Under the pieces are notes generated by a model. That model did not search any database and was not told the DNA's origin. It worked only from the letters and a program-made list of their open reading frames with translations. A stretch of DNA of 42,829 nucleotides from NCBI GenBank assembly GCA_937136025.1, contig CAKZOC010000135.1, forward strand, positions 1-42,829, written 5' to 3'. The position numbers and the translations under genes were made by a program. Source of the stretch: an uncultured Bacteroidota bacterium. Its GTDB lineage: Bacteria > Bacteroidota > Bacteroidia > Flavobacteriales > Flavobacteriaceae. Every line of letters starts with the position of its first letter. Positions within the stretch are counted from its first letter, which is position 1. This document shows positions 37,277 to 42,728 of the stretch, piece by piece.

Positions 37277-37390
37277 GTCTTTTTTGCGGGTCCAGTCCGC
37301 GGGGCCGAGTGACCGCCGAAGGTCCACTGGATTACGGCTTGCGCCGTGATCCAGATACATCCCCCTCCTGCAAATAGAAAACGAAAACCC

Positions 37391-37419
37391 ACAGCCCCTT
37401 ACGGGTCTGTTGTTTTTTT
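37391..37419 (+). terminator. Putative murF terminator
   Basis: ACAGcCCC-TTAC-GGGtCTGT followed by TGTTTTTTT. Confidence 0.6.
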
Positions 37420-37466
37420 CCGTTTCGCCCTTGCTTACGAGTACACTCGACGCAGGTCGAAACGGA

Positions 37467-37495
37467 AAAACCCACGTCCTGCGGACGTGGGTTTT
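37467..37495. terminator. Bidirectional terminator between murF (+) and tRNA-Val (-)
   Basis: AAAACCCACGTCC-TGC-GGACGTGGGTTTT, 13-bp perfect stem with T runs on both strands. Confidence 0.8.
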
Positions 37496-37505
37496 CTGAG
37501 TGATG

Positions 37506-37580
37506 TGGGATATACTGGATTCGAACCGGTGACCTCTGCCCTGTCAAGGCAGCGCTCTAAACCAACTGAGCTAATATCCC
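37506..37580 (-). tRNA. tRNA-Val (anticodon GAC)
   Basis: Minus strand GGGATAT-TA-GCTC-AGTTGGTTTA-GAGC-G-CTGCC-TTGACAG-GGCAG-AGGTC-ACCGG-TTCGAAT-CCAGT-ATATCCC-A; 75 nt, full cloverleaf with one T-stem mismatch. Confidence 0.92.
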
Positions 37581-37764
37581 CTTTAGGAAGGCGCAATTTC
37601 GTAAAAAAACCGGGAGTGAGAAAACAGGGGGAAAGAAATCTTTTCCCCAGCTTTCAAAATCAAAAAAAAGAAGCTTGCTGATCTGGGTCATTTTAAAGAA
37701 CAGGACTCCTTCTTACATTCGCTTTGACATGCGAACCCACATTGTTTAATTTAAATTTCGTCTC

Positions 37765-38229
37765 ATGGACTTAACTAAATTCAAAAAAAGACATCCCAGT
37801 AGTCTTTTGTCGCAAGATTTTTTTGACCTGGATAACTTCTTTGATGATCGCATGTGGAAATCGGGTCTTATGAATGCCGATTTTTGGAATGGTAAGACCG
37901 TTGAACCCGCCCTGAACATTAAGGAAAATGAAAAGGGATTTGAAATTGAACTGGCCGCTCCGGGGTTCTCAAAAAAGGACTTCAATATTACCATTGAAGA
38001 CGGATGCCTGAATATCGCTGCCGAAAAAGAAGGATCTGAGGAGGAAACATCCGAAGATTTTACGCGTCGCGAATTCAACTATAAAGCCTTCAAAAGATCG
38101 CTTCAACTTCCCGAATCAGTGAGGGAAGAAGAAATAAAGGCCGAATACAACAACGGTATACTCAACTTCCGCCTTCTCAAAAAAGAAGTACCCCAAAAAA
38201 GACCGCCTAAGGTGATTGAAGTGGGCTGA
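37765..38229 (+). CDS. Hsp20/alpha-crystallin family small heat shock protein
   Basis: NIKENEKGFEIELAAPGFSKKDFNITIEDGCLNIAAEKE and YNNGILNFRLLKKE. Confidence 0.94.
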   Translation: MDLTKFKKRHPSSLLSQDFFDLDNFFDDRMWKSGLMNADFWNGKTVEPALNIKENEKGFEIELAAPGFSKKDFNITIEDGCLNIAAEKEGSEEETSEDFTRREFNYKAFKRSLQLPESVREEEIKAEYNNGILNFRLLKKEVPQKRPPKVIEVG

Positions 38230-38252: not shown

Positions 38253-38299
38253 TCCCTGTACTGCAAATCGTCCATAAGTGCGCAGTGCAGGGATTTTTA
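38253..38299 (+). terminator. Long-loop hairpin terminator after hsp20
   Basis: CCCTGTACTGC ... GCAGTGCAGGG followed by ATTTTTA; overlaps the 3' end of the convergent patatin gene. Confidence 0.55.
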
Positions 38300-39067
38300 T
38301 AAGGTTTTTATCGTGTCCGAAGCCTCTTGAAGGCGCTCTTTAGCCTCCTGGTATCCCAGTTGAAAAATAGTGTCGAGATCTTTTTCAAGAAACGTGCTGA
38401 AGCGACTCAGTTCCCTGGGGTAAACCAGAAGATCGCACAACGGAAACTTTTTTATGGAATCGGAGGCTGTTTTGATCTTCAGTACGCGTTCCAGGACCGC
38501 AACGGAGTGTTTTATTTTGGCTTTATCCGCCGGCTCAAAAGGATTGACATAAACGCCTATGAGAAAGTCTGCCTGTTCTCGGAGTAAGTCAACAGGAAAG
38601 TTATTGAGTACCCCTCCGTCTACGTAGTAGCCTTTTCCGATCTCTACGGGTGCGAAAAATCCCGGAAAAGCCGCTGAAGCCAATATTGCCCGGATTAAAG
38701 GACCTTTGCTGAACACCTTCAATTCCCCGCTCAGGATATTGGTCGATGTAACCTGAAGGGGAATTTTGAGCGCTGAAAAATCATCTTCGGGAAGTATTTC
38801 GAGAAAGCGCTTATAAAAACTTTCAGGATCAACCCATCCCGGCTTTCCAAAGGCATAATTTCCAAAACTCAAAAATTGGATACTTTTAAAGAACTCGAGC
38901 ATATCCCCGGTTGAAATTCCATAGGCATAGAGCGCTCCAACCACAGACCCCGCACTGGTGCCCGCAATAGCTTCCGGTCTGATCCCCGCCTCTTCCAGGG
39001 CCTTCAAAACCCCAATATGGGCAATTCCTCTATACCCTCCTCCCGATAATGCCAGGGCTGTTTTCAT
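38297..39067 (-). CDS. Patatin-like phospholipase family protein
   Basis: ALALSGGGYRGIAHIGVLKALEEAGI, GTSAGSVVGALYA (GXSXG), and YVDGGVLNNFPVD (DGG). Confidence 0.95.
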   Translation of the reverse strand: MKTALALSGGGYRGIAHIGVLKALEEAGIRPEAIAGTSAGSVVGALYAYGISTGDMLEFFKSIQFLSFGNYAFGKPGWVDPESFYKRFLEILPEDDFSALKIPLQVTSTNILSGELKVFSKGPLIRAILASAAFPGFFAPVEIGKGYYVDGGVLNNFPVDLLREQADFLIGVYVNPFEPADKAKIKHSVAVLERVLKIKTASDSIKKFPLCDLLVYPRELSRFSTFLEKDLDTIFQLGYQEAKERLQEASDTIKTL

Positions 39068-39226
39068 AATTCAGATGGACCGGTAAATAAACTGAAAGAG
39101 GGCTCTACTCGCTGCATGACCATTATCATATAAAACATATGTATACGCGTAGTATCTTTATAGATGGCTGCTTAGGTTCCCTTCAATTTCAGCCGTAGTG
39201 CAAGTTAAGATATATACACCATGCAT

Positions 39227-39292: not shown

Positions 39293-42200
39293 ATGAAAAA
39301 CTCCAAAAAAGGGTCGGGATTGTTGGATGCGCTGCCTGACGGCAAGGCCGAGGCTGTGCTTATCCTTGATGCCCAGGGGTGTTTTCTGGACTATCTCCCC
39401 GCACTTGATCAGGAGTTTCTCCTGCAAAACAAACACCTTAGAGGAAGCCCGCTAACCGACTCCCTTCCCGCCCATGTCGGCCCCCTTTTGCTCAAGGCAT
39501 TACAGGGCGTCCGGGAAAACCAAAAACCACAACACCTGGAATTTTCCACAAAAGGCGAACCGGAAAGACATTACGAAGTGCGGTTACTTCCTCTGGACGA
39601 TGAAAAAAATATTATCGCCTTTCGGGATATTACCGAAAGGGTACAGAATAAGCAGGATCTCATCCGGGAAAAAAGTCGTCTGAGAAATTATCTGGATTCG
39701 GCGGGCTCGATGTTTATCGTGCTAAAACCAGATTACCGGATTGCCCTTGTAAACCGCAAAGCCTGCGAGGTACTGGGATATCCGATGAAAGATCTTTTGA
39801 ATCAAAACTGGCTGCCCTTTATCAGTGGTGAGAAAGAACAGAAAAGGCTTAAAATCCTCTTTGATCAAACTTTCAGGGTCAAAAAGGAGTTATCGGATTA
39901 TTTTGAGAGCCCCGTAACTTCAAAATCGGGAACTACCCACATCATCCGCTGGCAAAATGCCCTTTTAAAAGATGCTTCGGGAAATCCGACAGGGCTGATT
40001 TGTTCCGGAGTAGACATTTCTGAACAGAAAGCTGCCGAAAACCAGTTCCGCAAAAGTGAGGAAAGAAACCGGGCCATACTGGAAGCCATTCCGGACGTTA
40101 TCCTGCTCCACGACCGCCATGGGCGCGTCCTGAGGGTAAAAGAATCTGCCCATTCTCCCCATTGCTTTCAAAAAGAGCGGATAGAAGGGAAATGTGTTGC
40201 GGATATCTTTCCTGGAAAAACAGGTCGGGAAATGCTCTTAAAAATTCAGGAATCCTGCCAATCAGGACAGACAAAAGTCCTGGAAACAGACCTGGATACG
40301 GACCAGGGGAAACTGTCTTATGAAATCCGATATGTATGTATGGAGGACCAGCAGGTTTTAGCTGTAGCCCGCAATACTACCGACACCCGTACGACCCAAC
40401 AAGGTCTCAACCTCAGAAACCGGGCACTGGAGGCCGCAGGTAACGGCATTATTATAGTGGATGCAATCCTGCCGGATTTGCCGATAATTTATTCCAATAA
40501 GGCCTGTACTGAAATCACTCAATATTCCGCAGAAGAATCGATTGGGAAAAATTGCCGTTTTCTTCAGGGACCACAAACCGATCCGGAAAAGGTAAGGCAG
40601 ATCCGGGAAGCCCTTGAACATGGTACTCAGTGCCGGGTAGAATTGAGAAACTACCGGAAGGATGGCTCCCTTTTCTGGAATGAACTCACCATAACCCCCA
40701 TTCGCGATCATACGGGCGCGCTTACCCATTTTATCGGAGTTCAAAATGACATCAGCACAAGAGTACTCGAAGGGGAACGCAAAGACCATATCCGAAAGAT
40801 TCTGGAGGCCATAACCCACGACAAACCTTTGGAGAAAACCGCTGGTATGATCGCTTCCTTCCTTCGCGCCTATTTTCCTCATACGGGCATTCAGATAGCA
40901 CTATGGCAACCGGGAGGCGAAGTACTGGAAACGCTTTCCGAAATAGGACTTCCTCCGGTCCTGAGTCACAAACTCAGGAAAGTTGGACTAAAAAAAGATA
41001 CGGGCTGCCCATGTGCTATGGCGGTAAGAACAAAAGAAGCGTCGGTACTCGAGGATCTCGAAAAAAATGAAGCCTCGGGAAAATTTATCAAAACCATAAA
41101 AGCTGTGAATATTAAGAGTTGCTGGTCCTTTCCCGTATTGTCTTCGGAAAACAAGGTGCTCGGGACCTGTACTTTTTATGGCCCGGCGTCTGCCAAACCC
41201 GACAAAGAAAAGCAGGAAATGGTGCAGGACGCCACGCAGCTCGCCGGTCTTGCTATCGAAAGGTACTTCACCCGTATTCATCTGGAAGAAAGCAATTCTA
41301 AACTCGAACAATACGCCAAAAACCTGGAAAAAGACGTGGCGCAGCGTACCGAGCAAGTGGAGTCTACGCTACAGAAACTCACAGAGAGCAACCTGTCCCT
41401 TCAGACCCAGATTAAAACGACTCAGAAAGCAGAAGAGCGGGCTCTGGCCAATCAGGAACTCTTTGCGGCAATCGCCAGGAACTTTCCCAGGGGCGTCATC
41501 ATGGTATTCAACGCCTTAGGGCATTACGTGCATCTCGAAGGGGAAGAACTGGACCGGATGGGGCTCCGAGACTGGTTGTTTTTGGAAAAACCGATAGTCA
41601 AAACTCCGGGCTTTTCCCCAGAAAAACTCAAGGACCTGGATCACAAGGTTCGTCAGACGCTGCTGGGGCAGCACCTCTCTTTTGAAGTTCACATTAAAGA
41701 AAATACCTATGCAGTGAATTCTATGCCGCTATACGCAGGGGAAACTCCCGGATGGGCGCTTTTGGTACTGACCAATGTCACAGAGCAAAAAAAGTCAGAG
41801 GAAGACCTCTTGCGCGCCCTTCGGATTGAACAGGAACTCAACGATCTCAAATCGCGCTTTATCTCTATGGCTTCTCACGAATTTCGCACCCCCCTCAGCG
41901 CCATTCATTCCTCAGCCATCCTCATTGGAAAACAGAACACTCCTGGCTTGGAAGACAAGCGGTTACGCTATCTGAGACAGATTAAAAACAACGTGCGCAA
42001 TCTGGTAGTCATCCTGGACGACTTCCTCTCCTTGAGTAAACTCGAAGAAGGGAATATAGAGGCTCAACCCGATACCTTTGACGCGCTCGACCTGATTCGG
42101 TCCGTACTCGAGGAACTCGAAAGCAATCTGAAAGTAGGACAACATTTTACAGAAACTTTTGAAATGTCCGCGCTGCAGGTGTATCAGGATCCTAAACTTC

Positions 42201-42529
42201 TGCGTCAGATTTTGGTAAATCTCCTGTCTAATGCCATCAAATACGCCCCGGAGAAAACCGGTATTTTTATTGCTATTGAAAAAGGGGAAACCACTTTTAC
42301 CATTTCTATTAAGGATAAAGGGATAGGGATCCCGGAGCAGGAGCACGAGCAGTTGTTCAATCGCTTCTTCCGCGCGCGTAACGCTATAAATATTCCGGGT
42401 ACAGGGTTGGGACTGCATCTGGTTAAACTCTATACAGAACTGATGGGGGGAAGCATTACATTTACGAGCGCACTGGATAAAGGCAGCACCTTTACCCTCA
42501 GACTGCCCCTGGTATTTAATCCGAACTGA
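39293..42529 (+). CDS. Multi-PAS/LOV/GAF sensor histidine kinase
   Basis: Several PAS domains, LOV signature SIGKNCRFLQGPQTDPEKV...NYRKDGSLFWNELTITPI...FIGVQNDIS, GAF-like region, coiled coil, HisKA SMASHEFRTPLSAIHSS, HATPase NLLSNAIKYAPE...GTGLGLHLVKLY. Confidence 0.94.
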   Translation: MKNSKKGSGLLDALPDGKAEAVLILDAQGCFLDYLPALDQEFLLQNKHLRGSPLTDSLPAHVGPLLLKALQGVRENQKPQHLEFSTKGEPERHYEVRLLPLDDEKNIIAFRDITERVQNKQDLIREKSRLRNYLDSAGSMFIVLKPDYRIALVNRKACEVLGYPMKDLLNQNWLPFISGEKEQKRLKILFDQTFRVKKELSDYFESPVTSKSGTTHIIRWQNALLKDASGNPTGLICSGVDISEQKAAENQFRKSEERNRAILEAIPDVILLHDRHGRVLRVKESAHSPHCFQKERIEGKCVADIFPGKTGREMLLKIQESCQSGQTKVLETDLDTDQGKLSYEIRYVCMEDQQVLAVARNTTDTRTTQQGLNLRNRALEAAGNGIIIVDAILPDLPIIYSNKACTEITQYSAEESIGKNCRFLQGPQTDPEKVRQIREALEHGTQCRVELRNYRKDGSLFWNELTITPIRDHTGALTHFIGVQNDISTRVLEGERKDHIRKILEAITHDKPLEKTAGMIASFLRAYFPHTGIQIALWQPGGEVLETLSEIGLPPVLSHKLRKVGLKKDTGCPCAMAVRTKEASVLEDLEKNEASGKFIKTIKAVNIKSCWSFPVLSSENKVLGTCTFYGPASAKPDKEKQEMVQDATQLAGLAIERYFTRIHLEESNSKLEQYAKNLEKDVAQRTEQVESTLQKLTESNLSLQTQIKTTQKAEERALANQELFAAIARNFPRGVIMVFNALGHYVHLEGEELDRMGLRDWLFLEKPIVKTPGFSPEKLKDLDHKVRQTLLGQHLSFEVHIKENTYAVNSMPLYAGETPGWALLVLTNVTEQKKSEEDLLRALRIEQELNDLKSRFISMASHEFRTPLSAIHSSAILIGKQNTPGLEDKRLRYLRQIKNNVRNLVVILDDFLSLSKLEEGNIEAQPDTFDALDLIRSVLEELESNLKVGQHFTETFEMSALQVYQDPKLLRQILVNLLSNAIKYAPEKTGIFIAIEKGETTFTISIKDKGIGIPEQEHEQLFNRFFRARNAINIPGTGLGLHLVKLYTELMGGSITFTSALDKGSTFTLRLPLVFNPN

Positions 42530-42530
42530 G

Positions 42531-42728
42531 ATGAAAAAAATTCTGATTATTGAAGACAATGCCGATATCAGGCAGTTGATCAGGAAAGGACTAACTGAAA
42601 CGCAAGGCGAGATTCCCTATGTTTTCGTGGAGGCCGACAACGGTATTACCGGCATCGAGTTGGGAAACCAACACATTCCCGACCTGATTATTTCAGACAT
42701 CATGATGCCGGGGAAGAATGGGCTGTAG
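42531..42728 (+). pseudogene. Response regulator receiver domain, truncated by an early stop just after the phospho-Asp region
   Basis: MKKILIIEDNADIRQLIRKGL...PDLIISDIMMPGKNGL*; the ORF ends after ~65 aa, well short of a complete receiver domain, and follows the kinase by 1 bp. Confidence 0.6.

Follow-up and report, generated by a model that had tools for sequence, protein, structure and literature searches.

A LOV histidine kinase, its REC-CRP partner and a predicted stress-gene regulon in Flavobacteriaceae

Results

Near the end of the window, that is the whole stretch of 42,829 nt of DNA that was analysed here, lies a gene for a LOV histidine kinase of 1078 aa (39293..42529, forward strand). 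It was recognized by its open reading frame, by Pfam matches and by full-length orthologues, the closest of which occur in Robiginitalea aurantiaca (71%) and R. marina (55%). On the same strand the kinase gene is followed by the start of a receiver (REC) gene (42531..42725; Response_reg, E 5.9e-10) that is cut short near the end of the contig. The divergent neighbour encodes a patatin-like phospholipase (38297..39067, reverse strand; Patatin, 6e-39), and a gene for an Hsp20 small heat-shock protein lies at 37765..38229 (forward strand; HSP20, 2.8e-22); both are predicted members of the regulon described below. A tRNA-Val(GAC) gene is located at 37505-37580 on the reverse strand, and the 111-aa open reading frame overlying it (37346-37681) is probably spurious.

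Kinase architecture

The layout PAS-PAS-PAS-LOV-GAF-coiled coil-PAS-HisKA-HATPase, which had been proposed in a preliminary description of the kinase, was found to be correct, with Pfam supporting the three PAS domains ahead of LOV as well as GAF, HisKA and HATPase_c, and a structure model supporting the final PAS. The domains span the residues 20-117, ~129-246 and ~263-366 (PAS), 376-490 (LOV), ~547-656 (GAF), 853-920 (HisKA) and 966-1073 (HATPase), and the coiled coil is placed between GAF and the last PAS. For the latter (aa ~730-835) the Pfam search gave no match; the AlphaFold model of aa 720-862 (41450..41878, forward strand), which includes the start of HisKA, reached a pLDDT of 87, and its Foldseek matches in the PDB were PAS domains with E ~1e-5. 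The GAF region (aa ~491-669; 40763..41299, forward strand) yielded generic matches only (GAF_2, 1.7e-8; GAF, 8.5e-8), for which reason a bilin-binding GAF was rejected. The kinase core (41840..42526, forward strand) carries HisKA (1.8e-13) and HATPase_c (2.5e-30), both above the Pfam cut-off, together with the motifs SHEFRTPLS and GTGLGL, as in HisKA-type sensor kinases. An HWE-type core as in LovK and the Brucella LOV-HK was considered and dismissed, Pfam assigning an ordinary HisKA domain. Membership in two NCBIfam families was rejected as well, with 144.8 bits against a cut-off of 250 for the YtvA family, the match being limited to the LOV part, and 131.6 of 450 bits for the blue-light histidine kinase family.

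The LOV domain

The LOV segment at 40436-40758 of the forward strand, in frame within the open reading frame 39293-42529, reads AGNGIIIVDAILPDLPIIYSNKACTEITQYSAEESIGKNCRFLQGPQTDPEKVRQIREALEHGTQCRVELRNYRKDGSLFWNELTITPIRDHTGALTHFIGVQNDIS in translation. The preliminary description had called it a canonical LOV domain with these coordinates, with a photoactive Cys421 and with counterparts of the flavin-contacting Asn and Gln residues, and each of these statements is borne out. The translation was reproduced; counted from the ATG at 39293, residue 421 is encoded by the TGC at 40553..40555 (forward strand), which places the adduct-forming Cys within GKNCRFLQG in alignment with the photoactive Cys of CrLOV1; and N420, C421, R422, Q425, R438, N453, N463 and Q484 are identical with CrLOV1, that is, all eight aligned positions that were tested. 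The top PDB sequence matches were LOV domains, namely those of Meiothermus ruber (E 1.9e-36), Chlamydomonas phot LOV1 (7.7e-32) and YtvA (1.4e-29), far beyond chance. Comparison with LOV structures, which had also been suggested, gave a close match: the AlphaFold2 model of the domain with its flanking helices (aa 372-500; 40406..40792, forward strand) has a mean pLDDT of 91 and superimposes on PDB 9vf7 with a TM score of 0.95 and an rmsd of 1.1 Å. The Cys in GXNCRFLQ, the flavin-contact set with the terminal Gln and the LOV/PAS fold, three features of LOV photoreceptors, are present. At one place the domain departs from the usual LOV sequence NxxFxxxTGY and reads NKACTEITQY instead. Sequence and model together support a canonical LOV domain that appears photochemically competent and is located deep inside a multi-PAS/GAF histidine kinase. 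By itself it is an ordinary addition to a known kind, and its surroundings are more interesting.

The REC-CRP partner

A response regulator of 356 aa with REC, cNMP-binding and HTH_Crp domains directly follows the kinase gene in R. aurantiaca and R. marina. In locus L023 the three domains are combined in one protein, as they are in full-length homologues elsewhere, and almost every sufficiently long LOV-kinase locus of Flavobacteriaceae has such a REC-CRP regulator directly downstream on the same strand. In the recognition helix of CRP, a Glu and an Arg read TGA. Both residues are retained in the regulator (xxxETxxR) and the REC Asp is conserved; the cAMP-pocket residues of CRP are absent.

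In the genome of the window, what is seen of the regulator is a REC head on one contig and a C-terminal fragment on another. The head at 42531 departs from the orthologues after ~10 codons and runs into a stop at 42726, followed by a unique tail of 105 bases that ends the contig; this tail has no other match in the genome and gave no sign of a repeat or an insertion element. Taken at face value, this divergence would mean a broken pair in this strain, with a different or truncated receiver and a kinase lacking its CRP-type output. We regard such a break as very unlikely, since the divergence starts close to the contig end and another contig, C25, opens with the part of the gene that encodes residues 214-356 (83% identity) and then keeps the R. 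aurantiaca gene order of holin-like, YtxH, sigma-like, acetate kinase, pta and Usp genes, which argues for an intact gene. From this arrangement, the regulator most likely spans the contig gap. The REC sequence at 42531-42725 probably either belongs to the beginning of the partner regulator or results from chimeric assembly, and the tail of the kinase contig may be chimeric.

Distribution of regulator and LOV domain

Among 399 genomes of the family, the regulator family was detected in 212 (E 1e-60 or better) and a LOV match in 69 (E 1e-18 or better). Compared by position, 25 of the 33 regulators of the closest type stand beside a LOV match, this type being defined by about E 1e-94 or better against R. 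aurantiaca with a cut chosen after seeing a gap in the scores. The other eight are loci L143-L150, seven of which keep the kinase core with other PAS heads or with a PAS in the LOV position; for L150, inspection identified no upstream kinase. Same-family kinases at L147 and L148 have another PAS free of LOV motifs in the LOV position. Among the more distant regulators, those inspected (L151-L162) are paired with a short PAS kinase (~411-443 aa), and others with a kinase of ~630 aa in which LOV is the second domain. In a set of 148 genomes from across the phylum, no regulator was seen outside the class of the window. One genome of the same genus (G193) has neither the LOV kinase nor the regulator nor the island-type Hsp20.

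A predicted operator before stress genes

TGA-N6-TCA is the spacing of CRP/FNR operators. A palindrome of this spacing, TGAY-N4-RTCA with TGACCTAGGTCA as its best form, precedes the genes of the island. Two predicted operators lie in the window. One, TGACCATTATCA at 39117..39128, is situated in the divergent patatin/kinase promoter and is conserved in alignment in four species, as ATGACCATTGTCATATAA in L023 and L025 and in close forms in the window and L024. The other, TGATCTGGGTCA at 37679..37690, is located 86 bp before the start of Hsp20 and recurs in orthologous Hsp20 promoters. TGACNNTTRTCATA has one match in the window and none in 100 shuffles. Three more predicted operators were found on C25 (locus L113), two between YtxH and the sigma-like gene (1597 and 1624) and one between pta and Usp (6416), and all five are intergenic and before island genes; three further matches elsewhere in the window are about the number expected by chance.

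Across loci, TGAY-N4-RTCA occurs upstream of Hsp20 in 22 of 22 (0.22 expected from shuffles), YtxH in 16 of 16 (0.16), patatin in 16 of 19 (0.30), the sigma-like gene in 9 of 10 (0.13), Usp in 6 of 10 (0.14) and pta in 2 of 2. Upstream of the regulator gene itself it was found in 0 of 34. As in a CRP/FNR regulon, the TGA-N6-TCA sites stand upstream of conserved genes. At L029 and L053, several near-perfect TGACCTAGGTCA-like palindromes lie ~450 bases apart at ~16.8-18.4 kb, where a simple gene finder matched no gene starts to them.

Of the 34 genomes that carry the closest regulator type, 25 contain the exact motif TGACCTAGGTCA (65 sites), versus 21 of 365 others (25 sites). The odds ratio is 45 and the Fisher p 7e-20, an optimistic value, because the genomes used to define the motif overlap with those used to define the regulator class and related species do not count as independent observations. 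A reversed control pattern showed no comparable enrichment in regulator-bearing genomes. Hsp20 paralogues outside the island had the site in 0 of 14 cases; they come from regulator-lacking genomes and include a second Hsp20 copy in G340, an R. aurantiaca-like genome whose island copy does have the site.

The sites might be bound by another protein of the CRP/FNR superfamily, in which recognition helices are similar, and the kinase pair might control something else; the genome of the window does encode at least one more CRP/FNR-like protein (C133). We consider this unlikely. The occurrence of the exact motif goes with that of the closest regulator type, many genomes have the listed sites clustered no more than some tens of kb away from the regulator gene, and G193, which lacks the regulator, also lacks a site before its Hsp20. 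Coincidental synteny around an ordinary LOV kinase could be invoked too, as LOV kinases are common and the Robiginitalea genomes are related, yet operator and gene pair are conserved over many genera despite different surrounding gene order; these data from distant genera largely refute it and leave it extremely improbable. The exact motif was also present in the eight genomes in which the regulator has no adjoining LOV, and the LOV domain was accordingly rejected as the cause of the operator distribution.

Loss of the photoactive cysteine

The Cys is retained in 43 of the 46 paired loci of the first set and in the clade of the window. In three paired long-form kinases it is replaced by Ser (L030), Gly (L033) or Trp (L035), with the same REC-CRP regulator adjoining each, and in the short form of one genus its position is taken by Phe (L182, L186) or Ile (L191). 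In a tree of the kinase core, Cys-bearing relatives surround both the Ser/Gly pair and the Trp case, which are two distinct events; with the short form included, the photoactive Cys was therefore likely lost at least three times. The count of eight Cys-state changes on the tree is probably one too high, as L007 (GLNCRILQ) has the Cys. Gln484 is replaced by His, Leu or Ser in several relatives, a known kind of natural variation (PMC9098866).

Orthologues that lost the Cys or lack the LOV domain suggest that the kinase-regulator pair can work without light. This raises the question whether the LOV domain serves mainly as a sensor of flavin redox state or oxygen history, in a redox or stress kinase that happens to keep its photochemistry. 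The gene pair is kept where the Cys is gone, in the long and the short form alike, Cys-less LOV domains can signal via flavin reduction (Yee 2015, PMC4682037), and for the Brucella LOVHK an effect of light on the general stress response could not be shown, and redox sensing was suggested for LovK (PMC4438053). The predominance of the Cys among paired loci and in the clade of the window argues, on the other side, for selection on adduct chemistry, and we judge a mainly redox-sensing role to be fairly unlikely.

Discussion

The adjacent REC-CRP regulator and the operator-bearing stress island are the more informative part of this locus and were missed by the preliminary description. Domain identities, the conserved gene pairing and the distribution of the predicted operator are established at the level of sequence comparison. 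Together they lead to a scheme from LOV kinase via REC-CRP regulator to the predicted operators of the stress island, which, as a whole, we hold to be probable. Blue light would induce a flavin-Cys421 adduct in the LOV domain, and the signal would reach HisKA/HATPase by way of GAF, coiled coil and C-terminal PAS. The next step would be phosphorylation, by the kinase, of REC in the CRP/FNR-type regulator whose gene directly follows, and the phosphorylated regulator would bind the TGA-N6-TCA palindromes (TGAC-N4-GTCA and close forms) before Hsp20, patatin, YtxH, the sigma-like gene and pta/Usp. We infer both the role of light as the physiological input and the direction of its control. The remaining PAS/GAF domains probably feed redox or metabolite signals into the same kinase.

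The deep position of the LOV domain had been taken to suggest that blue light is integrated with other inputs. This idea fits the comparative data, because the LOV domain varies while kinase core and response regulator stay. The LOV domain would be one of several plug-in inputs on a conserved kinase core, since related kinases keep core and regulator while LOV is swapped, deleted or Cys-less. Likewise, light appears to be one of the exchangeable inputs of a wider stress system, because the exact motif accompanies the regulator both with and without a LOV domain in the kinase.

From these surroundings a concrete and testable circuit can be drawn for marine Bacteroidota, leading from blue light to operator sequences and named target genes, and light could help to set the stress defences of a marine Robiginitalea-type flavobacterium. 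Orthologues that combine the same core and regulator with a LOV-Cys, a Cys-less LOV or no LOV form a natural experiment on the need for the adduct, and also inform how photoreceptors are gained and lost. In the openly accessible papers that were searched, no description of a LOV two-component or LOV/REC-CRP system in Bacteroidota was found, and nothing on point appeared for LOV in flavobacteria, CRP response regulators, Robiginitalea or Winogradskyella. More broadly, Flavobacteriaceae and relatives may possess an undescribed general-stress regulon under a REC-CRP regulator with exchangeable kinase sensor heads; the LOV head, present in many genera including that of the window, would then form a third independent pathway from light to general stress besides YtvA-SigB and LovK-PhyR, a proposition that we regard as evenly poised.

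Among known systems, the closest solved LOV domain is that of the Meiothermus ruber histidine kinase Mrub_1259 (PDB 9vf7/9vf8; 49-54% identity, TM 0.95), whose host belongs to a different phylum. YF1 (PDB 4gcz) also joins a LOV domain via a coiled coil to a HisKA-type kinase, but it is engineered and its LOV domain lies directly next to the kinase, unlike in the window. On the output side, the regulator shares the TGA-N6-TCA operator spacing and the recognition-helix Glu and Arg with CRP/FNR factors, from which it differs by its REC fusion and its lack of the cAMP-pocket residues; FixJ, unlike the regulator described here, is not CRP-type, whereas FixK, downstream of FixLJ, is. YtvA of Bacillus subtilis likewise has a canonical LOV domain with its Cys and feeds blue light into the general stress response through the SigB stressosome, but it is a LOV-STAS protein without a kinase, whereas the system of the window consists of a histidine kinase and a CRP-type regulator. 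LOV histidine kinases of Alphaproteobacteria are HWE-type and linked to the general stress response (PMC4438053). LovK/LOV-HK with PhyR and LovR in Caulobacter, Brucella and Erythrobacter resemble the present pair in feeding that response, but act on PhyR/anti-sigma partner switching, whereas here a HisKA kinase adjoins a REC-CRP regulator with a different operator. With these differences, the LOV-kinase/REC-CRP stress regulon may represent a Bacteroidota counterpart of YtvA-SigB and LovK-PhyR.
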